18,538 nt of DNA from an uncultured delta proteobacterium (GCA_903930515.1 CAIYYW010000282.1:1-18538); one strand, 5' to 3'. Numbered from the stretch's first letter, positions 1,502-17,973 are shown. Notes: generated by a model not told the origin, from the sequence alone. Made by a program: numbers and translations.

Positions 1502-4500
1502 TTATTTTCCGGTTCCCAGTCTTAAATTGAGCTGCTTCAGGACTTCGTCCAGTTTGGAGGACAGCTCTTTTCCCGAGGGCTTTAGCTGAGAAAGACTTTT
1601 CCGAGCCTCTTCATCGCCGATTTTGCCCAGCAGCTCCAGGCCGGCGATTTTGGGCTTGTCGCGTCCCTCGGTCTGGCTGGCAAAGCGTTTGCGGATCCTC
1701 TCCGCAAAACCCTCCCCCTCCGAGACCAGCGCGAGCAATTTTTCCTCCAGCCCCCGTCGCTCTTCCTCGCTCTCGGGCAAGGCCCTGGCCAGTTCCTGGA
1801 TCGCCAGCGCCCGGAGTTCGGCATGCTCTTCCGGGTTAAAGGCCAGATCCGACATCCTGGTTCTGAGGAAGGAATTATTCTTGGACATAAACCCGAGCGC
1901 GGCCACCGCCCTTTTCCTCACCCCCAAGTCCGGGTCTTTAAAGATCGGTTCCATCACCGCGAGAGCCTCCGATCCCAGAATCCGGACCAGGGAACTGATT
2001 GCCTCGGCGCGAAGCTCGGGCCGGGAATGTCTGAGGAACACCTTGACCAGGTCGGCGTCCGCTTGGTTCCTGGCCCGGCCGAGAGCTTCCAGGGCCAGCA
2101 ATTGCAGGTTGAAAGGCTTGGCCGGGTCTTGTAAAATGCCCCGCAGCCGCTCAATGGATTTGGGCCCGAACCGGACCAGGCCCTCAATCAAAAGCTTGCG
2201 CTTGCCCGGGTTTTGCTCCGTGAGCAGGGTATCATAAATCTTTTGCAGGCCGAACTCTCCCAGGAGCAGGAATATTTCTTCAATCCCCTTCCTCACCCCG
2301 CTGGCATCTTCCAGCAGCAGCCGGATCAAGACCGGGACCTGTTCCCCCCAGACCGCCTGGTTCAAGTCGGCGAGGTTATGCTCGGACAGGAGCGCGCGTT
2401 TTTTCGCCGGCACTTTGGTAAGGCCTTCGGTGATCAGATACAGCCCCTGGTAATCCCTCCGGTCCAGGAGCAGGGGCAAAATCCGGCTGAAATATTTCAG
2501 GAACAGCTCCAGGTCTTCTAGTTGCCGGGCTTCCGCGAATTTGCCCAGCCAGAGGTAGGGCTGTTTCTGGAACTCGTCCGCCATCGACTTGATATTGATC
2601 CTGTCCTGGACCTCGGGGGGCAGCTCGTCAAAGGTGATAATATTATGGTAAAACATCTGTTCCAGAAAAAGGTCGGTTCCCTCAATCTCCTCGGTTAAAA
2701 TCTTGAGCGCGATTTTCTTGAGGATCCCTTTGATCGAATCAATCCTGGGCAGGATGATATTTCTCTGCTCGTCGGTTTCCAGTTTGATTTCGCCCAGCCG
2801 TTTTAGTTCTTGAAAAATATATTCCGAGGTCGGGATCAACATATCCATCGGGAAAAAATCTATCACCGCCTCTTCCAATTCCCCCTGGTCTATCCCCGGC
2901 ACTTGGCGGGCGATCAGGTAAACATTGAGCACAATTTCCTTGAGCAATTCCGGACGGCGCAAGGGGCGGAGGATGTCCTGGATGATCTGGGACTTGAGCC
3001 GGGAGAGTTCTTTCGGGTCCAGGTCCTTGTAGAGCGGGAGCACTTTTAAATCTTTGGCCAGACGCTGGATCGCCATCTCCACCCGCCAGGGTAGCTTGGT
3101 TTCCAAATAAATCAGGTCGTCTTCAAAGATCGCGGAAATCTCCGTAATCCGGTCCTCCACCAGCATCCGGGTCAAGAGCCGGCCGGATTCCGAGGTCTCT
3201 CCCTGGTCCACCTTCGGGTCGCTCATAATATCCACGAACCGGTAAAAGTTATTCTCGGCGATGGTGTTCTTGACTGCCAGGCTGATCAGGCGCTTGCGCT
3301 CGAAAAAATCCAGGTATTTCGGGAAAAAAAGTTCGGAGGTGCCGGCTCCCAGCAATTTCTTGAGCGTGATCGGCTCCGGGCTTACGCCGGTGATCATAAA
3401 TGTCGGGGGATGACCGGTCTGGTGTTGGAGGATAAAGCCGAGTTCAATATTATCTCCCACGGCCTGCTTGAATTCCTGGAATAAGCCCTGCTTGGCCGAT
3501 TGCGAGCCGGGATGGTCCGAGGCATAGTATCCGCTCCGGAGCATGGCCTTGACCAGCGACTGGGTAAAGTGGCCCACCGGAGCGAAATCCAAAAGATCAA
3601 CCGCTTGCCGCTCCTCCCCCTGTTCTTCCCGGACCCCTTCCTCGGGCTCTGCTTTTTTAGGCTTCTTCTCTTCCTTCCGGACCAGCCAGGTCCGGAGTTG
3701 CTGGAGGGGGTCGGAAACCGAGGGCGCCGGTGGAGGATCAACCCCCTTGATCCTGACCTCGCTCTCAGCATCTTTCTCCGCCCCCTTTTTCAATTCAACC
3801 TTTTCCACCTTCGGCTTTTCCGGATGGGAGTGGATTTCTTCCCTTGTAATCGGCGCCTTTTTCGGTTTCGGCTTTTCCGGCTCCGGCTTTTCCGGATGGG
3901 AGTGGATTTCTTCCCTTGTAATCGGCGCTTTTTTCGGTTTCGGCTTTTCCGGCTCCGCTTTTTCCGGCTCCCGGATGACAACCTTTTTCGCCGCTTCCGA
4001 TTCTTCTTCTCCAGCCGGTCCGGTTCCGGGCTTAATCACAACCTCCGACTCCGCGGGTTTTTCCGGTTCCGCGCTCCCCGGCTCTTCCATAAGCGCTTTT
4101 GATAAAACGGTTTCGGATTCGGTTTGCGCCTCCGGCCCTTCCTGATCCTCGGGTCCCACTTTCAAAATAATCTCTTCCGCTTCCTCAATTCCCGCCTTTT
4201 TCCGGCCAGGGACATCCAGTAACTCATTGTAGGAGGGAATCTCGGCCAGCCGGTCTAATATTTTGTCAACTTCTTCCCGGTTGGTTATGGTCACTTCCAC
4301 TGATTTGCCGTCCGGGTTCACGGCTTTGATCCGCGCCATAATCTTTTGTGGCTCGGACAACTCCGGCAGAACCAAGTCCACTTCCAACTCTTCTCCAACC
4401 GGATGCACCTGGCTGGTAGGGATAGTCAGAATGCCGGTGGATAGGGATTCCAGAAACTTTTGTAACAGTTTGCCGGTTTCAGGGAACCTCAACCGGATTC

Positions 4501-4510
4501 TTCTTGCCAT
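1502..4510 (-). CDS. Large PilZ-like domain protein with acidic/Lys-Pro linker and C-terminal HEAT repeats
   Basis: A 1002-residue protein starting at ATG 4510; a TTG three bases upstream is possible but less likely. Residues 1-95 resemble PilZ-type domains of the myxobacterial TIGR02266 kind (SLSTGILTIPTS, then VGEELEVDLVLPELSEP). The RxxxR arm is not evident and the usual (D/N)xSxxG turn is changed, so c-di-GMP binding is doubtful. Residues about 105-300 are a Glu/Pro/Lys-rich, probably disordered linker with a duplicated 24-residue unit. Residues about 300-560 are a helical domain shared with the paralog at 1-1424. The C-terminal third (about 700-990) shows HEAT-like helical pairs, for example RPELRAEAISSLVRIL and DLGVRKRAVAALGFM. 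No signal peptide or membrane segment is seen, so it is likely a cytoplasmic scaffold or signalling protein. Function unknown; PilZ assignment is by pattern only. Confidence 0.85.
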   Translation of the reverse strand: MARRIRLRFPETGKLLQKFLESLSTGILTIPTSQVHPVGEELEVDLVLPELSEPQKIMARIKAVNPDGKSVEVTITNREEVDKILDRLAEIPSYNELLDVPGRKKAGIEEAEEIILKVGPEDQEGPEAQTESETVLSKALMEEPGSAEPEKPAESEVVIKPGTGPAGEEESEAAKKVVIREPEKAEPEKPKPKKAPITREEIHSHPEKPEPEKPKPKKAPITREEIHSHPEKPKVEKVELKKGAEKDAESEVRIKGVDPPPAPSVSDPLQQLRTWLVRKEEKKPKKAEPEEGVREEQGEERQAVDLLDFAPVGHFTQSLVKAMLRSGYYASDHPGSQSAKQGLFQEFKQAVGDNIELGFILQHQTGHPPTFMITGVSPEPITLKKLLGAGTSELFFPKYLDFFERKRLISLAVKNTIAENNFYRFVDIMSDPKVDQGETSESGRLLTRMLVEDRITEISAIFEDDLIYLETKLPWRVEMAIQRLAKDLKVLPLYKDLDPKELSRLKSQIIQDILRPLRRPELLKEIVLNVYLIARQVPGIDQGELEEAVIDFFPMDMLIPTSEYIFQELKRLGEIKLETDEQRNIILPRIDSIKGILKKIALKILTEEIEGTDLFLEQMFYHNIITFDELPPEVQDRINIKSMADEFQKQPYLWLGKFAEARQLEDLELFLKYFSRILPLLLDRRDYQGLYLITEGLTKVPAKKRALLSEHNLADLNQAVWGEQVPVLIRLLLEDASGVRKGIEEIFLLLGEFGLQKIYDTLLTEQNPGKRKLLIEGLVRFGPKSIERLRGILQDPAKPFNLQLLALEALGRARNQADADLVKVFLRHSRPELRAEAISSLVRILGSEALAVMEPIFKDPDLGVRKRAVAALGFMSKNNSFLRTRMSDLAFNPEEHAELRALAIQELARALPESEEERRGLEEKLLALVSEGEGFAERIRKRFASQTEGRDKPKIAGLELLGKIGDEEARKSLSQLKPSGKELSSKLDEVLKQLNLRLGTGK
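3811..3964 (-). repeat. 72-bp tandem duplication inside the linker of the PilZ/HEAT gene
   Basis: Two near-identical 72-bp units (about 3821-3892 and 3893-3964) follow each other without frame change. Each encodes a 24-residue unit with KPKPKKAPITREEIHSHPEK. The paralog at 1-1424 lacks it, so this is a recent in-frame expansion of the linker. Confidence 0.85.
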
Positions 4511-4517
4511 CAAATTT

Positions 4518-6869: not shown

Positions 6870-6958
6870 GCGAGGATGGCGGAACTGGTAGACGCGCAAG
6901 GCTGAGGACCTTGTGGCAAAAAAATGCCATGGGGGTTCAATTCCCCCTCCTCGCACCA
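6870..6958 (+). tRNA. tRNA-Leu (anticodon GAG), CCA encoded
   Basis: The 89-nt gene folds as a class II tRNA: acceptor GCGAGGA/TCCTCGC, D arm with GGTAGA, anticodon stem CAAGG/CCTTG with loop CTGAGGA (anticodon GAG at 6904-6906), long variable arm TGGCA/TGCCA closed by an A loop, T arm GGGGG-TTCAATT-CCCCC, discriminator A and encoded CCA (6956-6958). It reads leucine CUC/CUU codons. Its 3' end is repeated at 10690-10714 and 17882-17908, marking it as an integration target. Confidence 0.97.
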
Positions 6959-7305
6959 GATATGAACATGGTCTATCTCCTTAATATCATTTGCGAATTC
7001 GGTTTCCGAACCAATGACAGCGATTTTCGGTTGTGTGCCGGTTAAGTTATCCGCCGCGTTTGGCGGGATCGCGTCCCTAATCTTGTATAGTCCCCCACGC
7101 CCATAGACACTGGCCCGCCCTGTCCCGCCCTTCGTGATGGGGTAATGCCCGCTGGGCGAAGGAATTGAAATGCGGCGCTGAGAAATGAGGATCAGCGTTA
7201 ACAAGGCTTGGTTGATGATTTGTGATCCGATCAAGAGCGGACCCCACATTCATCCAAACTTGAATAGGGCTGCAATTGCTGGTATGATGGCGGCTGCAGT
7301 TGGAT
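6959..7305. other. Gene-free stretch after the tRNA
   Basis: No plus-strand gene is supported. The minus strand has an open frame across 7249-6557, but it continues antisense through the tRNA and into secG, so it is not accepted as a gene. The part from 7200 to 6960 (with IAVIGSETEFANDIKEIDHV) could be a remnant of an unknown coding sequence. The stretch is the left end of module 1, where an integrase gene would be expected; none is seen. Confidence 0.5.
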
Positions 7306-7334
7306 TTGTTATGGAGGGCGGTTGGCCGCATAAT
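7306..7334 (+). promoter_or_regulatory. Candidate promoter of the aminotransferase operon
   Basis: TTGTTA (7306-7311), a 17-bp spacer and CATAAT (7329-7334). The -10 box falls inside the first copy of the 39-bp direct repeat at 7317-7417, which would suit a regulator binding site. Transcription would start near 7341, leaving a leader of about 95 nt. Confidence 0.35.
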
Positions 7335-7417
7335 TCCGGAACAAACGCAGACTGACAAGTATTTTTGTTGTCATTGATGGCGGCTGGCCGAAAGTATCAG
7401 GTAACGAACGCGACTGA
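7317..7417 (+). repeat. 39-bp imperfect direct repeat upstream of the aminotransferase gene
   Basis: Copy 1 is 7317-7355 and copy 2 is 7379-7417, 62 bp apart. Both begin GGCGGYTGGCCG and end with AACGC followed by GACTGA, with about 70% identity including one small gap. Copy 1 overlaps the predicted -10 box and copy 2 ends just before the ribosome binding site AGAGG (7423-7427). It could be a paired operator or leader-RNA repeat. Confidence 0.45.
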
Positions 7418-7434
7418 AGAGCAGAGGTATTATC

Positions 7435-8712
7435 ATGACCGATCCCAAGGATAGTCTCCAAAAAATCAAGGACAAAGCCCTGGCCGATTACGCCAGGCAC
7501 ATAAGCCCGATGAAGGTGCGGACGCTGACCCAGGCCGGGGTCAACTTGATTGAGGACAAGCGGGAAGGCACGTCGGTCTGGGACATAACCGGTAAAAAAT
7601 ATATTGATTGCATGACCGGCGCGGGCATTATGAATGTGGGCAGGCGCAACCCGGATATTATAAATGCTCTCAAGCAGGCGCTTGACCGCCTGGACATCGG
7701 CGTTTTCCTTTTTATGTCCAAACAGAAGGCCGACCTGGCCAGAAAAATTTCCGAGATCACCCCCGGCAACCTCTCTTGCACCGTCTTTGGCGTGGGGGGC
7801 GGCGAGGCCGTTGACACCGCCATCAAGCTGGCGCGCGGCTATTCAATGAAACCAGAGATCATCTACACCGACAAGGCCTACCACGGACATACCGGCTTTG
7901 CCCTGTCCGCCATCGGGCGCGATTCCTTTCGGGAGCCTTTCGAGCCGTTGATGCCGCGTTTCAAAAAAGTCCCCTATAATGACGCAAAAGCCATTGAGGG
8001 AGCGATTACCGATGACACCGCCGCCGTCATCCTTGAAACCATCCAGGGAGAAGGCGGCATCAATGTGCCCTCGGACGACTACCTGCCAAAAGTACGCAGG
8101 ATCTGCGACGAGCACGATGTGCTCTTGATCCTTGATGAGATACAAACCGGCATGGGCCGCACCGGCAAGATGTTCGCCTGCGAACACTGGGGGGTGACGC
8201 CGGATATCATGACCATAGCCAAGTCGCTGGGCGGGGGGATTTACCCTATCTCCGCCACCGTATACCGGGAGGAACTCCAGGACTTTTTCATTCCCCATCC
8301 CTTTGTTCACCTCTCCACCTTTGGGGGCGCCGACCTGGGATGCGTGGTGGCGCTGGCCACCATTGAATATATCCAGAAAAACAATCTTCTTGAAAACGCG
8401 ACCAAGATGGGGGACCGCTTCAGAAATGGTTTTAACCGTATCCTTGCAAGCTTTCCGGATTTGCTGCTTGAGGTCAGACAAAAGGGGCTGATGATGGGTC
8501 TTCAATACAGCAACGGTTCCATCGGACCGCGCATGACCAAGAAGTTCGCGGAGCGGGGCGTGCTCGCGGTCTACACCGGAAACGACCCCAGTGTCTGCCG
8601 GCTGATGCCTTCCCTGGTGATAACGCCGGAAGAAGTTGATTTCGTGCTCAATGCGCTCGACGATAGCATGAAGGAGCTTTCTGAAGAGGGTGGTATTGGC
8701 AAGAATGACTGA
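7435..8712 (+). CDS. Class III PLP-dependent aminotransferase
   Basis: A 425-residue fold-type I enzyme of the acetylornithine/ornithine/4-aminobutyrate aminotransferase group. It should move the omega- or alpha-amino group of a diamine or amino acid to a keto acid in the cytoplasm. Landmarks: the PLP-phosphate loop [11 protein letters not shown] (121-131), YHGHTG (149-154) stacking on PLP, D234 in [14 protein letters not shown] contacting the pyridine nitrogen, and the Schiff-base lysine K263 in TIAKSLGGG. The length is normal. AGAGG at 7423-7427 supports ATG 7435. It is the first gene of an operon with an SCP2-like protein (29 bp downstream) and an APC permease, suggesting uptake and transamination of one amine substrate. 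Which substrate cannot be told from sequence; GABA, putrescine, ornithine or beta-alanine-like compounds are all possible. Confidence 0.92.
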
Positions 8713-8741
8713 CTGGCGCACATGGATTTAGGGGGTGAAAA

Positions 8742-9101
8742 ATGGCTGCAACCAAAGACATTATGGAAGCTCTGGCTGACTACAAGGAGCAGTGCAACAA
8801 TAACCAACGCCTGCGCCGCATGCAGCGGGACTGGAGTAAGCTGCTTCACTTCGTGGCGAAGGACACCGGCGACAGTTTCACCATGGAGGTGGTCAAGGGC
8901 GAGATCATTGCCAACGAGGAGGGGGCGCGGGGCGTTCCCGACATCATAGTCACCGCCACCAGTGAGGACATGTGCGACATGTTCTGGGGAGATCTCAACC
9001 CTGCGCAGAAATACCTTGACGGCGAGATCCTGGTCAAGGCCAGTCCTGAGGATGTGCAGCGCATTGATGCCATTACCATGATTATCTGGCCGGAAAGTTG
9101 A
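8742..9101 (+). CDS. SCP2-like sterol/lipid carrier domain protein
   Basis: A 119-residue single-domain protein. The second half follows the SCP2 sterol-carrier pattern: VKGEIIANEEGARGVPDIIV, then TATSEDMCDMFWGDLNP and AQKYLDGEILVKASPEDVQ, comparable to the family pattern of a charged beta sheet, an x-D-x-T/V-I strand, L-x-G-x-L-N-P, and a G-K/E-I/L-x-V-x-G-D end. SCP2 domains have a hydrophobic tunnel binding lipids or acyl-CoA; no enzymatic activity is expected. No signal peptide is seen, so it is cytoplasmic. The ribosome binding site AGGGGG (8730-8735) is strong and the gene sits between aminotransferase and permease, so co-expression is likely. Its role beside an aminotransferase is not known; it may bind a hydrophobic or CoA-linked substrate. 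Confidence 0.75.
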   Translation: MAATKDIMEALADYKEQCNNNQRLRRMQRDWSKLLHFVAKDTGDSFTMEVVKGEIIANEEGARGVPDIIVTATSEDMCDMFWGDLNPAQKYLDGEILVKASPEDVQRIDAITMIIWPES

Positions 9102-9167
9102 GGTTGTTGCTTTTCTAGAGTCGCTGATTTTTTCTCGTCTCAATTTGCTTGGAACCGGGAGACTGGC

Positions 9168-10568
9168 ATGCCGACTTTAAAGAAAGTCCTGAAACTTCGC
9201 ACCGTGGTGTCCGCCTCGGCGGGCCTGGCCATGGCAACTTCGGTCTACCTGGCGGGCTTGCAGATAGCGCTTACGGTGGTGGGCGAATTGGCCTGGATAT
9301 CAATCCTGGTGGCCGGGGCGCTGTGCATGCTCTCGGCCATGTGCTTTTCCGAACTGGTTTCCCTCTATCCGACCGCAGCCGGCATCAAGCTCTACATCCA
9401 GCACGCCTTCAACGAGAAGGCGGCCGTCGCCATCGGCATGTTCTATGTCATCACCGGCACTGCCATCGTGGGGGCGGAGGGCTATCTGCTTTCCAGCGTG
9501 ATGATTGAGACGGTGGGGGTCAGGGTCAGCATGATGGCCGACCGGTTCTTCTGGATGTCGATTTTCATCCTGATCGTGGCCTACATCAACTATCGGGGAG
9601 TCTCCATCACCGGCTGGGTGCAGGATCTGCTTACCTACATTATGTTCGCCTTCCTGCTGACTATTTCCATCTACACCCTCGCGACCCGGGGCGTTGACAT
9701 CGGCCCGGCGCTTCACAGCCCGAATTTTACTCTCGGCAAGGTGCTGACGGCCGCAGGGCTGGGGGTGTTTTTATTCGTGGGCTTCGAGTGGGTGACGCCG
9801 CTTGCGGAAGAAACCGAAGACTACCGGATGGTGGGCAAGGGCATGATGCTTGCCGTGCTGCTGTTGACCATAACTTATTCCCTGTTCGTTGTAGCCATGT
9901 ACGTAGGGCTCACTGATCAGCAGTTGAAAAGCGGCACCACCATACCCCACATCCTTTTCGGGCGGAACCTTTTCGGTCCGACCGGAGGCGTGATTTTTAT
10001 TTTCATGAGCCTCCTGGCCTCTTTAACCTCTTTCAATTCCGGGGTTCTCAACTTCTCCAGGTTTGGTTACGCGATGGCCCGGGCCAATATCTTGCCCCGG
10101 GTGTTCAGCAAACTGCACCCCGATTATGCCACCCCGTGGGTCGCGATCCTGGGGCTGACGATTTTTGCACTGGCCTTGTGCGCGTTCACCCTGTTCAGCG
10201 GACAATTCATGTTTATCATTACCATGGCCGCGGCGCTGGAGTGTTTCATTTACGTGGTCGTCTCCATTTGCGTGATCCGTCTCCGGAAAAAATATCCGGA
10301 CCAGGAGCGTTCTTACAAGGTGCCATTCGGAAAGCTCATCCCGGTCGTGAATATTGTCGTATTTTCCGGCCTGATGCTGGGGATATTCGCAGACACCACC
10401 CGTGATTCCCTGGGCAAGATAATGTTCAAAAACTATTGGGTGGCCGTGGTGATGGCGGTGTTCGCCTTGGTCATGACGGCGTATGCTTTTGTTGTCGTTC
10501 CCCGTCTTCAGCAGGCTGCCCGGCAACGGGCTTCACAGCGGAAGCGCCGGCGGCCAGGCCAGTCGTGA
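9168..10568 (+). CDS. APC-superfamily amino acid/amine permease
   Basis: A 466-residue inner-membrane transporter with about 12 hydrophobic helices. TM1 carries the APC-type unwound signature SAGLAMATSVYLAG (about residues 17-30), and GFEWVTPLAEETEDYRMVGKG in the middle matches the conserved TM6/TM7 link of APC permeases (G-E-x-x-P-x-E-E-x). A basic tail rich in Arg/Lys ends the protein at the cytoplasmic side. GGGAG at 9157-9161 supports the ATG. It is the third gene of the aminotransferase operon (66 bp after the SCP2 gene) and should import the substrate of the aminotransferase or exchange it for the product. Substrate unknown. Confidence 0.92.
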   Translation: MPTLKKVLKLRTVVSASAGLAMATSVYLAGLQIALTVVGELAWISILVAGALCMLSAMCFSELVSLYPTAAGIKLYIQHAFNEKAAVAIGMFYVITGTAIVGAEGYLLSSVMIETVGVRVSMMADRFFWMSIFILIVAYINYRGVSITGWVQDLLTYIMFAFLLTISIYTLATRGVDIGPALHSPNFTLGKVLTAAGLGVFLFVGFEWVTPLAEETEDYRMVGKGMMLAVLLLTITYSLFVVAMYVGLTDQQLKSGTTIPHILFGRNLFGPTGGVIFIFMSLLASLTSFNSGVLNFSRFGYAMARANILPRVFSKLHPDYATPWVAILGLTIFALALCAFTLFSGQFMFIITMAAALECFIYVVVSICVIRLRKKYPDQERSYKVPFGKLIPVVNIVVFSGLMLGIFADTTRDSLGKIMFKNYWVAVVMAVFALVMTAYAFVVVPRLQQAARQRASQRKRRRPGQS

Positions 10569-10689
10569 ATAACGGCGTCAGTTTTTTATAAATCCATGTC
10601 AGACGGGCTTACCAGCAAACGCTTTTGGTATGGTTTCTGCAAGGGAGTTGTCGGGGGGTTGTCCTCCTTGGAAAGTTTTTTCCCAAGGC

Positions 10690-10714
10690 GTTCAATTCCC
10701 CCTGCTCGCACCAG
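10690..10714 (+). repeat. tRNA-Leu 3'-end copy (att-like site)
   Basis: 25 nt equal to the tRNA-Leu 3' end including CCA (6936-6960 region), with a single mismatch at 10704 (G for C). Same orientation as the tRNA. It lacks the rest of the tRNA, as expected of an attachment-site remnant left by integration at a tRNA 3' end. Confidence 0.75.
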
Positions 10715-10782
10715 AATATATTTTCTATTTATTTGATACTATTGGACAATCTCAATTTTTCTTCAACTGGTTTTTGGTGCAA

Positions 10783-10808
10783 GTGCACACATAGGGCACA
10801 CTTTTTGT
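10783..10808 (+). repeat. 26-bp GTGCAC/GCAC repeat, copy A
   Basis: Begins GTGCACACATAGGGCACAC and ends in a T run; identical to 17700-17725 over 26 bp and similar to 17974-17999. It holds a short GTGC...GCAC inverted core. It occurs only near the tRNA-end copies, so it may be a recombinase binding site or other element-end sequence. Confidence 0.7.
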
Positions 10809-10903
10809 CTGAGCTATCCGCAGAACCCTTGCTAACACTAGGCTATGCAAGATGGTTGATTTTAAACTAATGGATGGTCCAGCTAATGGGGGCACTTCTA
10901 TAG

Positions 10904-11059
10904 CTGCGGGTCAAGACTTTATTTATTGAGGCAGGCAGTCCTTGGGAGAATGGCTATATTGAGAGCTTTAACGGCAAGCTCCGGGATGAGCTTTTGAACG
11001 GAGAGATTTTCTAGACTTTGCAAGAGGACAAGGTGCTGATTTAGGCCAGGCGGAGGCTA
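10904..11059 (+). pseudogene. IS3-family transposase (OrfB, DDE) C-terminal remnant
   Basis: The plus-strand frame at 10904 reads [18 protein letters not shown] then [18 protein letters not shown], the well-known C-terminal block of IS3-family OrfB with the last catalytic Glu in GYIESFN. It is broken by TAG (about 11012) and again by TAG at 11042-11044, and the usual following NxxRPHSSLGY block is missing. Only about 50 codons remain, so it is non-functional debris lying between a tRNA-end copy and the beta-barrel gene. Confidence 0.85.
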
Positions 11060-11097
11060 TTACCTGGACGCCTCGCTCAAGCCCGTCAACTTGCTTT

Positions 11098-12270
11098 TCA
11101 GAAATTCCATATCACCCGGCCCCACAAAAACTGCGGGAGCGCGCCGAAATCCCCTTGCGGGTTCCCGCCAAAGAGTTGCGCGCCTGCGGCGATGGTGACG
11201 GACTGGGTTGCGGAGTAAGAAAAGGATGGCCCGATGAAGAAGGAACCGCCGTCCATGTCGTAGATAATGGCGGAACTGAACCCGAGCAGTGAGGTAAGAC
11301 TGAATCCGGTGCTCAAGCAAAGGAAGTTGCGGTCAATGGTCACAAGCCCCTGCTTGGTTGAGAACAAGAGTTCGGAGCCGTTCTGGCCCGAGTCCGAGAG
11401 CACTCCGTCGTCGTGGTAGTATTCGAGGATCATGAGGATCCCGTTTTTGAACTTGTATGAATACCCGACGGTGCCGCGCACATAGTTCAGGTCGTGGTCG
11501 GGGATGGTGTAGCTCAGTTCCCCGTAAAGGTTGCCGTCCTTCACATTGCCTGAGAACGCTCCGCCCACGATGTAGTCCTTGAAAATCCGGGCGGCCAGGA
11601 AATGCAGGTCAAAGGCTTTAACCGTGGTTTTGTAGTAAAACGCGAGCCGGCTTTTGTCCCAGCTGTCGCCGATGCCGTAGGCGAGCGAGGCATAGCTGCT
11701 CGGCCCGAGCTCGTATTCCATGCTCGCGCCGTCCACGCCCACCCGCTCCCCGGGGTTCAGGGATAAGGGGCTCACCGGATTGAAGATATCGAGCGGGCTG
11801 TAGAACAAGGCGCTGCCGTAAGCAATACGTTGACGGCCCACCACGGCCTTGAACTTTTTGCCCTCGTAAGCGACCCAGGCGCGGTAAACGCTCCAGTCCA
11901 GGTTCAGGTCTGTGGTATCGACAAAGTAATAGTCCCATTTGAAGTAGGTCGGCTGCGGGAATTTTCGCGCGAACTGATAAGCCGGGTTCTGGAGCGCGTT
12001 GCCCGCGCTCAAGAGCAAAGTCTGGCTGAAGTCCGCGGTGAAACCGTGACCGAAATTGAAATCCAGCAGCGGTCGGAACCTGGACTGTGAGAGCAGGAAA
12101 TAGTCATTGAGCAAGATCGGCGCGAGCAGCGCCTGTTCCTGGATATAGCCGGAAAAATCGATCTTGAAATCATCTTTTTCATAGACCGGCTTGCCGGAGC
12201 TGGGAGCCGCCGGCAGAGCGGCCATTATGGCTGCGGCAAGCAGAAATATTTTAGTTGCGGACCTGGTCAT
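11098..12270 (-). CDS. Outer-membrane beta-barrel protein, last gene of LolA/ABC operon
   Basis: A 390-residue protein with a signal peptide (MTRSATKIFLLAAAIMAALP, cleaved near residues 24-26) followed by alternating amphipathic strands rich in Tyr, Phe, Trp and Gly. It ends WGRVIWNF, with the terminal Phe and aromatic spacing that BAM recognises in outer-membrane proteins. A short segment RAWVAYEGKKFKAVVGRQRI resembles porin-like barrels (for example DUF1302/alginate-export types), but no family can be named with certainty. It overlaps the ATPase gene by 20 bp, so it is translated together with the ABC transporter. Context suggests it is the outer-membrane end of the exporter, either a pore or an acceptor. 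Confidence 0.85.
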   Translation of the reverse strand: MTRSATKIFLLAAAIMAALPAAPSSGKPVYEKDDFKIDFSGYIQEQALLAPILLNDYFLLSQSRFRPLLDFNFGHGFTADFSQTLLLSAGNALQNPAYQFARKFPQPTYFKWDYYFVDTTDLNLDWSVYRAWVAYEGKKFKAVVGRQRIAYGSALFYSPLDIFNPVSPLSLNPGERVGVDGASMEYELGPSSYASLAYGIGDSWDKSRLAFYYKTTVKAFDLHFLAARIFKDYIVGGAFSGNVKDGNLYGELSYTIPDHDLNYVRGTVGYSYKFKNGILMILEYYHDDGVLSDSGQNGSELLFSTKQGLVTIDRNFLCLSTGFSLTSLLGFSSAIIYDMDGGSFFIGPSFSYSATQSVTIAAGAQLFGGNPQGDFGALPQFLWGRVIWNF

Positions 12271-12937
12271 TGGTGATTTTGCCGTCTTTCAATTCAACCA
12301 GCCGCTTTGCGTACTCCATAACCATAGGGTCGTGGGTCGAGAAGAGGAATGTGATTCCCTGGTCCTGGTTGAGCTTGTGCATCATGTCCATGAGTTCATG
12401 CGCGGTCTTGGAGTCGAGATTGGCGGTCGGCTCGTCCGCGAGCACCAGTTCCGGAAGGTGCACGATCGCGCGCGCCACGGCCACGCGCTGCTGCTGTCCG
12501 CCGCTCATCTCCGTGGGCTTTTTGTTGACGAGCTGGCCGAGCCCGAGCTGTTCAAGGATCTTGATTGAACGCTCCCGCCGTTCCTTCCTGGGCACGTGCT
12601 GCAGGATCAGAATGTATTCGACATTCTCCAGCGCGGTCAGCACCGGGATCAGGTTATAGGCCTGGAAAACGAAACCGACCTTGAAAAGCCGGAGCCTTGA
12701 GAGCTGGCTGTCGTTAAGCGCGGTGATCTCCTGGTCCGAGAGCCAGACCTTTCCGGCCGAGGGCCGGTCCAGGCCGCCGATGATGTTGAGCAGCGTGGTC
12801 TTGCCCGAGCCGCTCGGGCCGAACAGCGCCGTGAACTCGCCCTTCTCCATCTTGAAGTCCACACCGGCCAGGGCATTGGTCGCAACATCATGTTCCTTGT
12901 AAACCTTGTTGATCGCCTGAACTTGCAAATGCGCCAT
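12251..12937 (-). CDS. LolD/MacB-type ABC transporter ATP-binding protein
   Basis: A 228-residue complete nucleotide-binding domain that powers the two FtsX-type permeases encoded upstream. Walker A GPSGSGKTT (40-48), Q-loop Q92 in FVFQAYNLIP, signature SGGQQQRVAVARA (145-157), Walker B LVLADEP (164-170) and H-loop H202 in STHD are all intact. The LIPVLTALENVE stretch is typical of the LolD/MacB/FtsE family. ATG 12937 is chosen over an upstream TTG (12955) because GGAGG lies 6 bp before it (12944-12948) and the protein then starts like LolD. It begins 14 bp after the second permease and overlaps the barrel gene. Whether it moves lipoproteins, as LolD does, or another substrate is unknown. Confidence 0.95.
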   Translation of the reverse strand: MAHLQVQAINKVYKEHDVATNALAGVDFKMEKGEFTALFGPSGSGKTTLLNIIGGLDRPSAGKVWLSDQEITALNDSQLSRLRLFKVGFVFQAYNLIPVLTALENVEYILILQHVPRKERRERSIKILEQLGLGQLVNKKPTEMSGGQQQRVAVARAIVHLPELVLADEPTANLDSKTAHELMDMMHKLNQDQGITFLFSTHDPMVMEYAKRLVELKDGKITNDQVRN

Positions 12938-12951
12938 CTCAAACCTCCATT

Positions 12952-14802
12952 TCAATACTTACTTAAAGCCTCAACCACCGGAAGTCGGCTCGCGCGCGCC
13001 GCGGGATAGAGCGCGGAAAGGATCGCGATCACAAAAGCCGTGACCACTATGGTCAGAATGTTCACCAGAGTCAGCGTCGGATGGATCACATACGGGCCGC
13101 CGCCGCCCCCTAAGTCCCACGTGAACCATGCCACATCCAGGCCGTGCCTTGACCAGTAACCGATAATTATGCCGCTGACCAATCCGCCAAGCGCCATGCC
13201 TATAAGCGCGAGCATCACCGATTCCATGATCACCATAAAGAACAGCTGGCGCGGGCGGGTGCCGATCGCCTTGAGTATCCCGAACTCGCGCACGCGTTCG
13301 AACACGCTCATCACCATGGTGTTGGCGATCCCCACGGCGATGATGATGTAGATGCAGAAGAGCAGTATATAGTTGACATAGTCCCCTGCCGAAATAAGCA
13401 TGACCATGTCCGGATAGAGTTCCTTCCAGTCCAGAATATCGAGACCCAGACTGGAAAGCAGCTCCTGGTCGGTCTCCTTAGAATCCGCGCCTTCTTTCAG
13501 CCTGACTACGATTTCGCTTGCCGCAGACTGGCCGACAAATTCTTTCCACAAGTCAGAGCTGCCGGAAATTGCGAAAAGCCCGTCCTCCTTTGCGCCCGGC
13601 CCGCGCTTGAGCGTGCCCGCGACTTGAAGGGGAAGCGACTTGCCCTGCGCTTCGATAAGAATGGTGTCTCCCGCGCTCACCCCAAGCCGTTCCGCGGCAG
13701 CCTCGCCTAGTATCACCCATCCCTGATTGGCGTCCAATTCTTTGTCCAGCTCGGCCCCCGCAAGCCAACTGTTCTCCGGAACCTTGACCCGGCTGAAAAT
13801 CCCGGACAGGCGGTCCTCTTTCAGCGGCTCCACGCCGATGACGGACAGTTCCAAAGATCTCTTCCTGCCGCTACGCTCAAAGACCGCGGTGGCCGGCAGT
13901 TCCAAACGATAGCTGACCAGCTCCGAGTTCGGGTTGTTCTTGAATGACTCGGCTATCGCCTCCGGCGCGAGGATCAGCTTGCCCGGCTCTTTCGACCTGA
14001 TGCCGAGCAAGTGGACCGCTTTGTTATCCAGCGTTTCCTGCTCCGGTTCAGCTTTCAGGTCCGATTTCCGGTTAGGCAGCCTGGCTTTTAATTCAGCCTT
14101 CAATGCGTCCAAATTTTTGGGATCGTCGACCATGATCGCGATTTCATTGAGCCTGCCCTTCATATCCATGATCCGCTCGGCCTGCCGGATCGGCATATAG
14201 ACCAGGCCCCTGTTCCAATCCTCGAAGCCGCTGTCAAACACTCCCTTGATCCTGAAGCTTTCCACCACATCCTGGCCGCCGGAAAAACCCTGCATTAAAA
14301 AGGCAATCTTATCTCCAGCGCCCAGCCTGAGCTTATGGGCCAGGGACTTACCGATGAGGACCACAGGCTCGTCATCGCTCTGGAAATAACTCCCGCTTTT
14401 GATGAAGCTTTTGATCCTGGTCACGGTGGGCTCGAGATCCGGGTCAATGCCCATGATCATGACTCCCTGCGAGGAGCTCGGCGACCGGGCGAGCGCGAAA
14501 TTGTAGATGCGGGGCGAATAGCCCGTCAGGTGCGGCGCGCCTTTGATTTTATTGATCACCGCGGCGCCGTCGGTCATACACAGCCTTAGGCTCTGGTTCT
14601 TGTGGTAACCCAGCCGGTGGATCTGAACATAGCCAATGTTTCCGAAAATGACGGTTTCCAACAACTTTGCGCTGACCGCGTCGTAATAGGAGCCGACGAT
14701 GCACATTGCCCAGACACCGACCGCGACCGCCGCAATGATCACAATAGTCCGGCGCGGGTTCCGCCCCAGGTTGCGCCACGCCATTTTAAAAAACTCCATC
14801 AT
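12952..14802 (-). CDS. FtsX/LolCE-type ABC permease with duplicated periplasmic module (second permease)
   Basis: A 616-residue inner-membrane subunit. It has the MacB/LolC topology: TM1 (about 19-40), a very large periplasmic domain (41-472), then TM2 (about 475-500), the coupling helix FERVREFGILKAIGTRPRQL (501-520), TM3 (521-548) and TM4 (580-605). LolC/E are normally about 400 residues; the extra length comes from a second copy of the periplasmic module. Copy 1 (about 113-227) has MIMGIDPDLE...VVLIGKSLAHKLRLGAGD, copy 2 (317-435) has SVIGVEPLKED...WVILGEAAAERLGVSAGD. AGGAGG lies just before the tandem ATGs (14802, 14799); the first aligns with the sister permease. It starts 7 bp after the sister gene stop. 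It is expected to pair with that protein as a heterodimer. Confidence 0.93.
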   Translation of the reverse strand: MMEFFKMAWRNLGRNPRRTIVIIAAVAVGVWAMCIVGSYYDAVSAKLLETVIFGNIGYVQIHRLGYHKNQSLRLCMTDGAAVINKIKGAPHLTGYSPRIYNFALARSPSSSQGVMIMGIDPDLEPTVTRIKSFIKSGSYFQSDDEPVVLIGKSLAHKLRLGAGDKIAFLMQGFSGGQDVVESFRIKGVFDSGFEDWNRGLVYMPIRQAERIMDMKGRLNEIAIMVDDPKNLDALKAELKARLPNRKSDLKAEPEQETLDNKAVHLLGIRSKEPGKLILAPEAIAESFKNNPNSELVSYRLELPATAVFERSGRKRSLELSVIGVEPLKEDRLSGIFSRVKVPENSWLAGAELDKELDANQGWVILGEAAAERLGVSAGDTILIEAQGKSLPLQVAGTLKRGPGAKEDGLFAISGSSDLWKEFVGQSAASEIVVRLKEGADSKETDQELLSSLGLDILDWKELYPDMVMLISAGDYVNYILLFCIYIIIAVGIANTMVMSVFERVREFGILKAIGTRPRQLFFMVIMESVMLALIGMALGGLVSGIIIGYWSRHGLDVAWFTWDLGGGGGPYVIHPTLTLVNILTIVVTAFVIAILSALYPAARASRLPVVEALSKY

Positions 14803-14809
14803 CGGCCTC

Positions 14810-16645
14810 CTATTGCAGCCGCAGGGTCTGCGCCAGTTTGGTCCGGCTCGCTCGCAAAGCCGGAGGGATGGTCGTGACCAGCACTAAACAAAAGTTGATG
14901 AGGGTTGCTTTGAGCAGCATGCGCGCTGTGAGTTTGGCATAAATAAACGACGGCATGTCCTGCGCTTCCATCATTCTTCCCGCCTCCTCGCTAATCGCGT
15001 AGAAGTTGATCGGGTTGTAGATTAAATAAAGCGATGGGATCAGCCCGAGCATTAGTCCGAGCGCGGTGCCGAGCAGGCCGAGCATGGCCGACTCCAGTAA
15101 TATGATCACGAAGATTTCCGAGGGCCTTGTCCCGATCGCCTTCATGATCCCAAACTGGCGCACGCGCTCGAGCACGCTCATCAGGATGGTGAGCATGAAC
15201 ACGAACCCGATGATCACGAAAAGGATTGCCCCAATGAATGACATGCTGTAACTGCTAGTCTTCGTTGTATTCATATAATTCGATCTCAGCTCCCGCCAGA
15301 GGACCACCTCGTAGTTCAGGCGCGATCCGATCAGGCTCCTGGCCTCGGACTCGCTTGAGCCCGGGAGCTTGATTGTAACCTGGCTCACATTTTCTCCGAG
15401 CCAGAGCCGGTCCTGCAATACCGCGAGCGGGACATAAGCCCGGGCTTTGCCGCCCGGCGCCACAACCCCGGCCAGTTTCAGCTCGAGCTTTACCGGCTCG
15501 CCCGCGTAGTTGGCGCCCGTGAGCATGACCAGGTCGCCGGTCTTGAGCCGGGACTTTTCTGCAATTGAGGAATCGAGCAACACCCAATCGGCGCCGGTCA
15601 GGCCGGACGCGGCTTTGGGCCATGCATCGTTCACGGTCATTTCCCTGGCCGGGTCGACGCCGAGTGTGGCGACCGTCGCGCCGTTGAGCGCCAGATCAGT
15701 GCGCACTTCCATTGAAAAATCCTTCAAGCCGGGAATGCGCGAAAGCATCTTGTCCAGGATTTCCTGGTTGGCGAGCTGGAGCGGAGAATCCTCCGGCAGG
15801 GTGGGCTTGTTGGGCCTGACCATCCAAAGCCCTCGTCCCAGGGAGTCCACTGTCCAGGGACCACGCCCTTCTGCGATCGCGCCGTATAAGGCTTTTTCCA
15901 CCGCGGGGATGTCATTTAAATCTTTCACGATGATTGCGATCTGGGTGACCTGGCCGCTCATGCCCAGAAAGTCCTGGAGCGCACCCAGGTTGACCAACAT
16001 CATGCTCGAGTCATATTTATCCGAGCAGCTGTGGAAAATGCCGCTGATTTTAAAATTAATTGCCGCCATGCTCCCATAAGCGTCCTGAGTCGTGAGCGAG
16101 AGCTCATCGCCGACTTTCACTTGCAGGTTGCGGGCTAGGACCTCGCCGATCACCACGGACTTGGGCTCGGACGCGGACAGGTACTTGCCGGAATAACCGC
16201 GATTGGTCTTGGTCCCCCTGGGCAGCTTAATCATGTCCGGGAAAAAAGTCTGGGCCACGCGCGAGGTCTTGACTTCATGATCGGGCAGCACGCCGCAGAT
16301 TGTCGCGTTCGCGAGGTAGCCGCCGGACTGAACAAAGGTCCCGGTGCAGAGCCTGGGCGAATAAGCGGTGACGCCGGGCATCCGGTCCAGGGCCGCGGTC
16401 AACCGCGGGTCCAGGGGCATGGCGCGCGCAATGGTCTGGTCCATCTGGTAGCCGGCCCGGTGCACCTGGAGATACCCGGGGAATATCTTCAATAAGTATT
16501 CGAGCTCTCCCAGGAACGCGCCCGTAGTAAAGGCATAGTAAAAAAGCGTAATGCCGGCGCCGAACATGATCACACACATGGTCAGCCCGCTGCGGAGCTT
16601 GTGTCTCCAGAGGTCGCGCCATGCTATTTTCAAAAACGCAAGCAT
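14810..16645 (-). CDS. FtsX/LolCE-type ABC permease with duplicated periplasmic module (first permease)
   Basis: A 611-residue inner-membrane protein homologous to the next gene: N-terminal MLAFLKIAWRDLWRHKLRSG matches MMEFFKMAWRNLGRNPRRT. TM1 (about 18-40), periplasmic region (41-466), TM2 (467-490), coupling helix LERVRQFGIMKAIGTRPSEI (492-511), TM3 (512-541) and TM4 (573-593). The periplasmic region again holds two modules: 113-243 (ICGVLPDHE, SVVIGEVLARNLQVKVGD, ISGIF) and 322-430 (TLGVDPARE, WVLLDSSIAEKSRLKTGD, LAGVV). In LolCDE one permease recruits the substrate and the other LolA; here both large domains could fill such roles. It begins 3 bp after the LolA-like gene stop, so translation is coupled. 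Confidence 0.93.
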   Translation of the reverse strand: MLAFLKIAWRDLWRHKLRSGLTMCVIMFGAGITLFYYAFTTGAFLGELEYLLKIFPGYLQVHRAGYQMDQTIARAMPLDPRLTAALDRMPGVTAYSPRLCTGTFVQSGGYLANATICGVLPDHEVKTSRVAQTFFPDMIKLPRGTKTNRGYSGKYLSASEPKSVVIGEVLARNLQVKVGDELSLTTQDAYGSMAAINFKISGIFHSCSDKYDSSMMLVNLGALQDFLGMSGQVTQIAIIVKDLNDIPAVEKALYGAIAEGRGPWTVDSLGRGLWMVRPNKPTLPEDSPLQLANQEILDKMLSRIPGLKDFSMEVRTDLALNGATVATLGVDPAREMTVNDAWPKAASGLTGADWVLLDSSIAEKSRLKTGDLVMLTGANYAGEPVKLELKLAGVVAPGGKARAYVPLAVLQDRLWLGENVSQVTIKLPGSSESEARSLIGSRLNYEVVLWRELRSNYMNTTKTSSYSMSFIGAILFVIIGFVFMLTILMSVLERVRQFGIMKAIGTRPSEIFVIILLESAMLGLLGTALGLMLGLIPSLYLIYNPINFYAISEEAGRMMEAQDMPSFIYAKLTARMLLKATLINFCLVLVTTIPPALRASRTKLAQTLRLQ

Positions 16646-16648
16646 GTT

Positions 16649-17437
16649 TCACCAATTTTTGCTTTTCAGGTTTTTCTCCGTGAAGATCCCCGAGTTGATG
16701 TCGATATCGAACTTGACCTCGGTGATAAGTAATTCAGTCTTGTGCCCGGGCTTGGTCATGGAGCGCATCTCCCATTTGCTCGGCAGTTTTCTGCCGCCCA
16801 TTTCCCTGACCTCGGAAAAAATCATCTCGTCCACCATCTTGCCGGACTCTTCAAAATTCTGCTCCTTGAGCGGTATGAATCCCTGGTCCCAGACCCAGAC
16901 CAGGATTTTGCCCCAGACCACCGGCGCATTGGGCTTGGGCAAAAGCTCAACCTGATAAACTTTGCCTCCCTGCTGATGATCGGCAAGATTGATTATTTTG
17001 TGTTCATAATCCCTCACGATGCTGGATTCGTGCATTAGGTCATCATTGCTGAAGTCCGAGCCCATCCAAGAATCGCGCATCATGGAGGGCGGGATTTTCA
17101 TCACTTTTTCCGCGGCCGGCATATACATCCAGAGGTTATAGCCGATCTTCAAAAAGCCGGTGCCGCGCTCGCGCGCCGGCTCAGTGATGCGGATGAACGA
17201 CCTGGAGTCCTTGACCGTCTCGTAAGCGAACATCTCGAGCTCGCGCGGGCCTGACCAGTCAGGGTTGTACATGGTCATCTTCACCTTCATGTAGCTGGTC
17301 TCGCCCCGGAGCAAAGCGTCCATCTTCGCCACCACCTCATCAGCAGTGAGCATTTGCCCAAAGACCGGAAAAGCCAGCGCGAGGGTTAAAGCAATCAAGC
17401 AGGAGCCTCCAGCCCAAAATTTTTTCATAAAACCCAT
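16649..17437 (-). CDS. LolA-like outer membrane lipoprotein-sorting protein (TP0789-like)
   Basis: A 262-residue secreted protein with a signal peptide (MGFMKKFWAGGSCLIALTLA then LAFPVFG, cleaved near Q29). The mature part follows the LolA-like family of Treponema TP0789: tandem beta strands with FIRITEPARERGTGFLKIG, NLWMYMPAAEKVMKIPPSMM and WMGSDFSNDDLMHESS. These proteins fold as a half-barrel that carries lipid or lipoprotein acyl chains through the periplasm. ATG 17437 is preferred over 17452/17449 because GGAGG (17443-17447) lies 5 bp upstream. It is the first gene of the five-gene operon and directly precedes two LolCE-type permeases, so it should receive cargo from the ABC unit and pass it to the outer-membrane barrel. 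Its cargo is unknown. Confidence 0.93.
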   Translation of the reverse strand: MGFMKKFWAGGSCLIALTLALAFPVFGQMLTADEVVAKMDALLRGETSYMKVKMTMYNPDWSGPRELEMFAYETVKDSRSFIRITEPARERGTGFLKIGYNLWMYMPAAEKVMKIPPSMMRDSWMGSDFSNDDLMHESSIVRDYEHKIINLADHQQGGKVYQVELLPKPNAPVVWGKILVWVWDQGFIPLKEQNFEESGKMVDEMIFSEVREMGGRKLPSKWEMRSMTKPGHKTELLITEVKFDIDINSGIFTEKNLKSKNW

Positions 17438-17474
17438 CCCGTCCTCCATCAATTATTCTGGTTGAAAACTTCAT

Positions 17475-17503
17475 ATTTTAATGCTATTCATTTATAAAAT
17501 CAA
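17475..17503 (-). promoter_or_regulatory. Candidate sigma70 promoter of the LolA/ABC operon
   Basis: On the minus strand TTGATT (17503-17498), a 17-bp spacer and TAAAAT (17480-17475). Transcription would start near 17468, giving a leader of about 30 nt before ATG 17437 with its GGAGG. The local DNA is AT-rich compared with the flanking genes. Confidence 0.5.
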
Positions 17504-17529
17504 CTCTTAAGTCAACAAATTAGATTTCT

Positions 17530-17586
17530 TTACCACCCACCAGCCTGGCAGGAAAACTGTTTTGGCATAATGTCTCTGATCTTCAT
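17530..17586 (-). pseudogene. N-terminal fragment of an unidentified protein (possibly CBS-domain type)
   Basis: An ATG at 17586 preceded by a strong AGGAGG on the minus strand (about 17591-17597) opens a frame of only 18 residues starting MKIRDIMPKQ, similar to the beginning of CBS-domain proteins, and stops at TAA 17530-17532. Its ATG overlaps the stop of the upstream remnant as ATGA. The strong ribosome binding site with almost no protein suggests a truncated gene. It could also be a real short leader peptide. Confidence 0.3.
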
Positions 17587-17693
17587 GTTATCCCCTCCTT
17601 TCTGATCATGTCTAAGATTGTTTTTTTGACCTTGTCATAGAGGTCGGCCCAGACGCTCTTGACAAACTCTAGCTCAGGCGCGAGTCGGAGAGA
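17583..17693 (-). pseudogene. C-terminal gene remnant of unknown protein
   Basis: The minus-strand frame ending at TGA 17583-17585 reads SLRLAPELEFVKSVW then ADLYDKVKKTILDMIRKEGI, a regular amphipathic helix pattern that looks like true coding sequence. Upstream of about 17693 the same frame runs through the 26-bp repeat (17700-17725) and into the tRNA-end copy, so it is probably the tail of a gene cut at the repeat. The 4-bp ATGA overlap with the next fragment is typical of an old operon. The family is not recognised. Confidence 0.35.
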
Positions 17694-17699
17694 ATTTTT

Positions 17700-17725
17700 G
17701 TGCACACATAGGGCACACTTTTTGT
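17700..17725 (+). repeat. 26-bp GTGCAC/GCAC repeat, copy B
   Basis: Identical over 26 bp to 10783-10808. It lies at the point where the coding remnant at 17583-17693 begins and 156 bp before the third tRNA-end copy. Confidence 0.75.
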
Positions 17726-17881
17726 GCAAAATAGTGTCCAGAAAGTGTTCGGGAAGTGTATTGGAGCTGTCTTCGGGGCCACTTGGGGCACCCGGCTCAT
17801 CGCTGGATTCTGTGCGGATTTTCGCGGTTTCTGTATGGGATTTGTCGGGGTTTTGTTCGTTCTGGGATTTGTTTTCCCTGA

Positions 17882-17908
17882 GGTTCAATTCCCCCTCCTC
17901 GCACCAGA
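17882..17908 (+). repeat. tRNA-Leu 3'-end copy (att-like site)
   Basis: 27 nt identical to 6934-6960 (part of the T arm, acceptor 3' strand, ACCA and the next GA). Same orientation as the intact tRNA. No other tRNA part is nearby. Confidence 0.85.
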
Positions 17909-17973
17909 ATATTTTTTTATCTATTTGGTACTATTATGAAATTTGATCTTCTCTCGATATAATTTTAATTCAA

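Follow-up and report, generated by a model that had tools for sequence, protein, structure and literature searches.

Described systems related to the operon

The known relatives of the system described here are RND-driven cousins and one cluster from Borrelia, and its ABC-type form is largely undescribed in the open-access literature searched. In Castellaniella, AmeABCD combines a DUF1302 barrel and a DUF1329 LolA-like protein with an HAE3-type RND pump, and its deletion lowers the tolerance to apolar monoterpenes, a phenotype by which it counts as an exporter of these compounds (PMC6394551). The DUF1302 and DUF1329 proteins of P. putida are predicted to form a complex (PMC10866462), and in Thalassolituus the MMPL-LolA protein TOL_3187, with the adjacent porin TOL_3188, showed a response on the C28 alkane (PMC6304351). 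The iron-regulated genes PG1178-1181 of P. gingivalis encode a TetR protein, an MMPL protein and a protein for lipoprotein sorting, besides one hypothetical protein (PMC10470040, PMC10434189). YbbAP-TesA is a type VII system that extracts hydrophobic compounds (PMC12646458). The only published cluster of the ABC kind found in the open-access literature searched is BBJ23-29 of Borrelia (PMC13078400).

The window, i.e. the whole stretch of 18,538 nucleotides analyzed here from an uncultured delta proteobacterium, contains a five-gene operon which, like AmeABCD, unites a motor of the inner membrane with a periplasmic protein of the LolA superfamily and a predicted outer-membrane barrel. The HAE3 RND motor, the DUF1329 carrier, an extra BNR-type protein (AmeC) and the DUF1302 barrel are features of AmeABCD itself, whereas the window operon has an ABC motor and no HAE3/MMPL RND pump; RND motors are found at other loci with the same barrel family. 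TOL_3187/TOL_3188, with an MMPL-LolA fusion beside a predicted porin, resembles one of these loci (L042, see below), but it is driven by an RND motor, and the likeness is one of gene arrangement. YbbAP-TesA shares the type VII ABC complex, which extracts hydrophobic compounds, but has a lipid hydrolase as partner and neither carrier nor barrel. With MacAB-TolC, the operon has the MacB-type periplasmic domain and the ATPase family in common, but no MacA adaptor or TolC-type channel was matched by Pfam among the five proteins, and ATPase and permease are separate genes.

In the Borrelia cluster, too, a MacB-type ATPase and permease have a predicted outer-membrane barrel and a LolA-like protein as neighbors, and BBJ26 and BBJ27 matched the ATPase and permease profiles strongly. 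It differs in being described only in spirochaetes and in having two TPR proteins, a single permease and an Omp85-type barrel (BBJ25); no TPR gene comparable to BBJ23/24 was found by Pfam among the five proteins of the window operon. BBJ25 was rejected as a relative of the window barrel (no match, hhalign probability 0.5%). BBJ29 (L117:10008-11009), to which the Borrelia paper assigns no role, carries a GRQ..G motif and comes after the LolA-like BBJ28, the same position that the barrels have in L037, L063 and L092. It reached 7.9 bits with the whole-family barrel model (0 of 1752 shuffles as high) and an hhalign probability below 1%. The clade-restricted barrel models did no better, as two of them did not match it and a third scored it at 6.3 bits, a value reached in 1 of 1704 shuffles. 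On these sequence scores, BBJ29 may be regarded as a weak candidate for the barrel of the Borrelia cluster, as a lead only.

Gene content of the operon

Five adjacent ORFs, all on the minus strand at ~11098-17452, encode in order a LolA_like carrier, permease 1, permease 2, an ATPase and a barrel. A GGAGG ribosome site marks ATG 12937 as the likely start of the ATPase, and with this start the genes are separated by gaps of 3, 7 and 14 bp and one 20-bp overlap; the 14-bp gap is recovered because the ribosome sites favor this ATG. A tight operon with this order and spacing had been claimed in the sequence-only reading, with which the ORF reading and the Pfam and NCBIfam searches agree.

The first gene (16649..17452, minus strand) encodes a TP0789-like periplasmic carrier and likely starts at ATG 17437, with GGAGG just before it. 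As read from the sequence, the protein has a Sec signal peptide and no lipobox after the hydrophobic stretch. The Pfam search placed it in PF17131 (182.9 bits, curated cut-off 30) and in no other family, PF03548 (LolA) included. The nearest solved chains are 9tp6, which is P. gingivalis LolA3 and the best match, and 3buu. In LolA3 the LolA arginine is absent and LolB is hardly bound (PMC13103446). When the LolA_like genes of 60 genomes (about 63) were inspected by eye, roughly 24 lay near a detectable barrel, and the PF17131 family is therefore wider than this system. The second LolA_like gene of the same genome (contig C156, L118:4856-8240) has an overlap with the end of a HAMP/MCP-signalling gene of 865 aa, which is an odd pairing.

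Permease 1 (14810..16645, minus strand, 611 aa) and permease 2 (12952..14802, minus strand, 616 aa) are LolC/E-like, and in the Pfam search each contained two periplasmic MacB_PCD modules and FtsX. Their scores against the NCBIfam model TIGR02212 (lolCE) were 113 and 158 bits, respectively, below the equivalog cut-off of 362. The AlphaFold model of permease 2 (pLDDT 69) consists of one TM helix, two periplasmic domains, the second with low model confidence, and three TM helices; its best match in VIA-align was LolE of LolCDE (Z 26.8, rmsd 5.0 over 373 residues). Only the window and G002, a genome of the same order, had a pair of ~610-aa permeases with duplicated modules; the permeases of most other loci are ~410 aa long. 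The LolD/MacB-type ATPase (12251..12955, minus strand) matched ABC_tran at 117.8 bits in Pfam, and its best NCBIfam model among 193 families was LolD (TIGR02211) at 233.8 bits, below the cut-off of 307.75, as is the housekeeping copy at 260. Walker A, signature, Walker B and H-loop could all be read from the sequence. With FtsX/MacB_PCD permeases, 1 + 3 TM helices and a LolD-type ATPase, the transporter is of type VII (MacB/LolCDE).

The last gene (11098..12270, minus strand) encodes a protein of 390 aa from an unnamed family, for which no Pfam or NCBIfam family was matched. Its signal peptide, predicted strands and C-terminal Phe are those of a putative outer-membrane beta-barrel, and an aromatic end (F/Y/W) was present in 70 of 78 family members. 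The family is divergent (~20% identity among 18 aligned members), with the core motif DRA..GRQxIxWG..PxDxF..ERxGVDAL, which the window barrel carries in the conserved form GRQxIxxG..PxDxF. Its mean beta-alternation score of 14.4 exceeded that of shuffled sequences (10.2), while the window barrel alone, at 12 against a shuffle mean of 10.5, did not exceed the shuffles. The AlphaFold model, built from three input sequences, was poor (pLDDT 45, 16 strands); nearly all of its top Foldseek matches in the PDB were outer-membrane barrels, including porins, AlgE and PelB, and at this low confidence any assignment finer than outer-membrane barrel is unsafe. The family profile gave no credible match among PDB sequences. 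DUF1302 (PF06980) did not match the window barrel but matched 6 of 18 relatives weakly (E up to 1, best 0.00095), and these matches, together with weak ones to Wzi, suggest a distant tie to those barrels. On plasmids the barrel was found in two records only, both unannotated.

Housekeeping Lol proteins in the same genome

The same genome encodes a LolC/E permease scoring 387.6 bits (equivalog cut-off 362) and a LolD-like gene on contig C224, and a true LolA (PF03548) on contig C218. The operon is thus not the only Lol system of the genome, and since housekeeping LolCE, LolD and LolA exist separately, the earlier claim that it is accessory is borne out. LolB (PF03550) was detected neither in the operon nor in the genome, which is 93% complete. 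The operon shares with the Lol system a LolE-like permease fold, a LolD-like ATPase and a carrier of the LolA superfamily, but the carrier belongs to PF17131 and not PF03548, a barrel is present and not LolB, the periplasmic modules are duplicated, and a separate LolCE-D and LolA are encoded elsewhere in the genome. By the tests made, the system would work like Lol, yet is not a member of it.

Conservation across genomes

With the barrel alone as query and blind to its neighbors, a search of 60 genomes yielded 17 further loci that were readable in context. A LolA_like gene was found beside the barrel in 14 of these and all four roles in 9, so that barrel homologs do not lie mostly away from these genes. 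A profile of the barrel family matched 165 of 386 genomes at E 1e-3. The second set of 80 loci (59 families) comprised the window, two named loci (L024 of Aliifodinibius, Balneolaceae, and L025 of a Chlorobiota MAG) and the stronger profile matches; the profile was built from such loci and this set is therefore biased toward them, a bias from which the first set is free.

A LolA_like gene was present in 67 of the 80 loci. At about one such gene per genome, chance alone would put one within 9 kb of roughly 0.5-1% of genes picked at random. Among the 13 loci without LolA, 8 were on a cut contig or had a contig end nearby and 5 had good flanks (L030, L072, L086, L101 and L102). LolA, FtsX, ATPase and barrel occurred together in 51 loci from 43 families, 33 loci having exactly the order of the window (LolA-FtsX-FtsX-ATPase-barrel) and 9 the reverse order. 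Median gaps between consecutive genes were 4, 4, 11 and -4 bp, the last being that between ATPase and barrel. Barrel distances correlated with those of LolA, FtsX and ATPase (r 0.74-0.82, Mantel p 0.001, n=50). The system is accordingly real and spread over at least 43 families.

The conserved five-gene set in unrelated genomes and the barrel as constant partner, like the separate housekeeping Lol proteins, support the sequence-only reading in part. Nor is the set "complete" at every locus, as L026 (G002:C70), the nearest relative of the window operon, and L029 are four-gene versions that have no ATPase gene at the locus. In the related genomes of L033, L062 and L064, bactofilin-like and envelope-type genes could be read downstream of the barrel.

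TetR-family genes were present in 14 of the 80 loci, next to the cluster in 13 of them (P about 1e-8; for example L034, L059, L069 and L103), and were not seen in the window. TetR aside, no recurrent cargo, biosynthetic or lipoprotein gene was found among the cluster neighbors; two-component and housekeeping families recurred, but look incidental.

Exchange of the motor

Among ABC-linked barrels there were a clade of 12 (support 99/97), of which 8 had an MMPL/RND pump in view and 4 showed none, nor any other motor, and a single additional RND-linked case. At the RND loci, the neighbors are LolA_like and the pump, which stands in place of the ABC genes; two genomes hold both kinds. In L042 (10765-14229), the RND pump is fused to a LolA_like domain in a protein of 1154 aa, the barrel gene follows with an overlap, and the portion corresponding to the pump is similar to HpnN, a hopanoid transporter, and BstA, a sterol transporter. 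Because the motor beside the same pair is either ABC or RND, the carrier-barrel pair is the constant element. A separate observation was made in L051 (5336-9220), where MMPL pump and barrel share one 1294-aa frame in which the barrel retains a start codon and signal peptide of its own, at residue 901; the two may be truly fused, or a stop codon was lost or the assembly is wrong.

Genomic setting of the operon

The 27-nt tail of a tRNA-Leu gene (6870-6958) recurs at two sites on the plus strand, 10687..10713 with 2 mismatches and 17880..17906 with 1 mismatch, which form the downstream and upstream boundaries of the operon module, respectively. Two tandem modules end in such tails: 6958-10713, which begins at the tRNA gene itself and has an aminotransferase, SCP2 and an APC/amino-acid permease, and then 10714-17906, with the operon. 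A dispersed repeat of ~270 bp lies beside the tail (17581..17925, plus strand) and has copies on contig C155 of the same genome (83% identity) and in the same-genus genome G001 (82%). The earlier notion of a mobile module bounded by tRNA ends stands as far as the tail repeats are concerned, which are real at the level of sequence; no integrase was found within the window, and mobility of the module is something that we infer.

The tRNA-Leu tail setting was noticed also on C155, C2 and C378 of the same genome (G000), the ~270-bp repeat accompanying some of the tails, and on G001:C309 (L121-L122) a hydrogenase/Mrp-like gene set lies between two tails at a distance of ~22 kb. When an empty site was sought in G001, its secG-tRNA-Leu contig ended 600 bp past the tRNA, and the best LolA_like of this genome is at a contig end. 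The operon contig of G002 (C70) had no tail match, and the tRNA setting is therefore local and not part of the system. Elsewhere in the window, 1502-4513 encodes a 1003-aa protein with a weak TIGR02266-like match, a HEAT-repeat and a repeated segment, EKPEPEKPKPKKAPITREEIHSHP.

Proposed function and alternative explanations

We consider it somewhat probable that the operon encodes an accessory trans-envelope exporter of a hydrophobic, lipid-like molecule, following the Lol principle with a terminal barrel. The inner-membrane ABC complex would extract a greasy molecule from the inner membrane, and LolA_like would take it into its hydrophobic cleft, cross the periplasm and dock on the dedicated barrel, which would accept the molecule and pass it on, either into the outer membrane or out of the cell. 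In the sister clade, the same carrier-barrel pair would be served by a proton-driven HpnN/BstA-like RND pump, and because of this the hand-over from carrier to barrel is probably the defining step. The direction would be export, by analogy with other type VII motors. TetR ligands are usually small hydrophobic molecules, and the TetR proteins of the subset probably sense such a ligand.

An ordinary porin that merely lies beside a Lol-like operon and has no function in common with it would account for the barrel motif recalling DUF1302 and Wzi barrels and for the model resembling general porins. The linkage over 43 families, the overlapping genes with the median ATPase-barrel gap of -4 bp, the correlated distances of the barrel and its neighbors, and the retention of the barrel with a second motor type make this explanation very improbable. 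An uptake or retrograde route, in which hydrophobic compounds enter through the barrel and are brought inward by LolA_like, or in which mislocalized lipids are cleared from the outer membrane, is also rather improbable. Type VII ABC transporters extract from the inner membrane toward the periplasm, as is established for LolCDE and MacB, and the operon has no periplasmic binding protein or importer-type permease. Such a route would nevertheless fit the requirement of the P. putida DUF1302/DUF1329 genes for growth on Tween 20 (PMC10866462), the induction of TOL_3187/3188 by long alkanes (PMC6304351) and that of the RND operon PG1178-1181 under iron and hemin limitation (PMC10470040, PMC10434189).

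A dedicated lipoprotein pathway, in which one or a few lipoproteins are drawn out by the ABC complex and handed via LolA_like to the barrel, which replaces LolB by inserting them in the outer membrane or flipping them to the surface, has been proposed for Borrelia BBJ23-29 (PMC13078400) and would agree with a permease fold nearest to LolE, an ATPase that best matches LolD and a genome without LolB. We regard it as unlikely for the operon, as LolCE, LolD and LolA are already present in the genome, the carrier is not PF03548, no lipoprotein gene recurs beside the cluster, the motor of the RND clade is related to hopanoid and sterol pumps, and the relative LolA3 hardly binds LolB (PMC13103446). 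A lipid or hydrophobe is thus favored over lipoproteins as the cargo, with moderate confidence, because of the PF17131 carrier, the poor binding of LolB by LolA3, the link of RND pairs to apolar compounds and the TetR genes of a subset. Of the cargoes first suggested (lipoproteins, lipids or a surface glycolipid), lipoproteins thereby become the weaker reading. The published functional data all come from RND-type relatives, whose barrels are at best putative homologs of this one, DUF1302 being matched weakly.

Implications

How bacteria that lack the E. coli set move lipids or lipid-anchored molecules across the outer membrane is an open question, and every step is represented in the operon. 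The gene set is compact and conserved in at least 43 families; it has hardly been studied and would be easy to delete. The export scheme joins Borrelia BBJ26-29, AmeABCD, the alkane-induced TOL_3187/3188 and the iron-regulated PG1178-1181. A wider idea, which we put forward only tentatively and consider doubtful, is that of multi-phylum exporters with a core of LolA-type carrier and private barrel and an interchangeable motor (type VII ABC or RND), which would bring a lipid, glycolipid or lipidated protein to the outer leaflet or the outside. If true, this exporter class would supply the step of outer-leaflet or outside placement, and no machine for that step is known from most non-proteobacterial diderms. 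The findings suggest a general role for LolA-fold carriers as shuttles of hydrophobes, paired with a matched barrel, and not as lipoprotein factors only.
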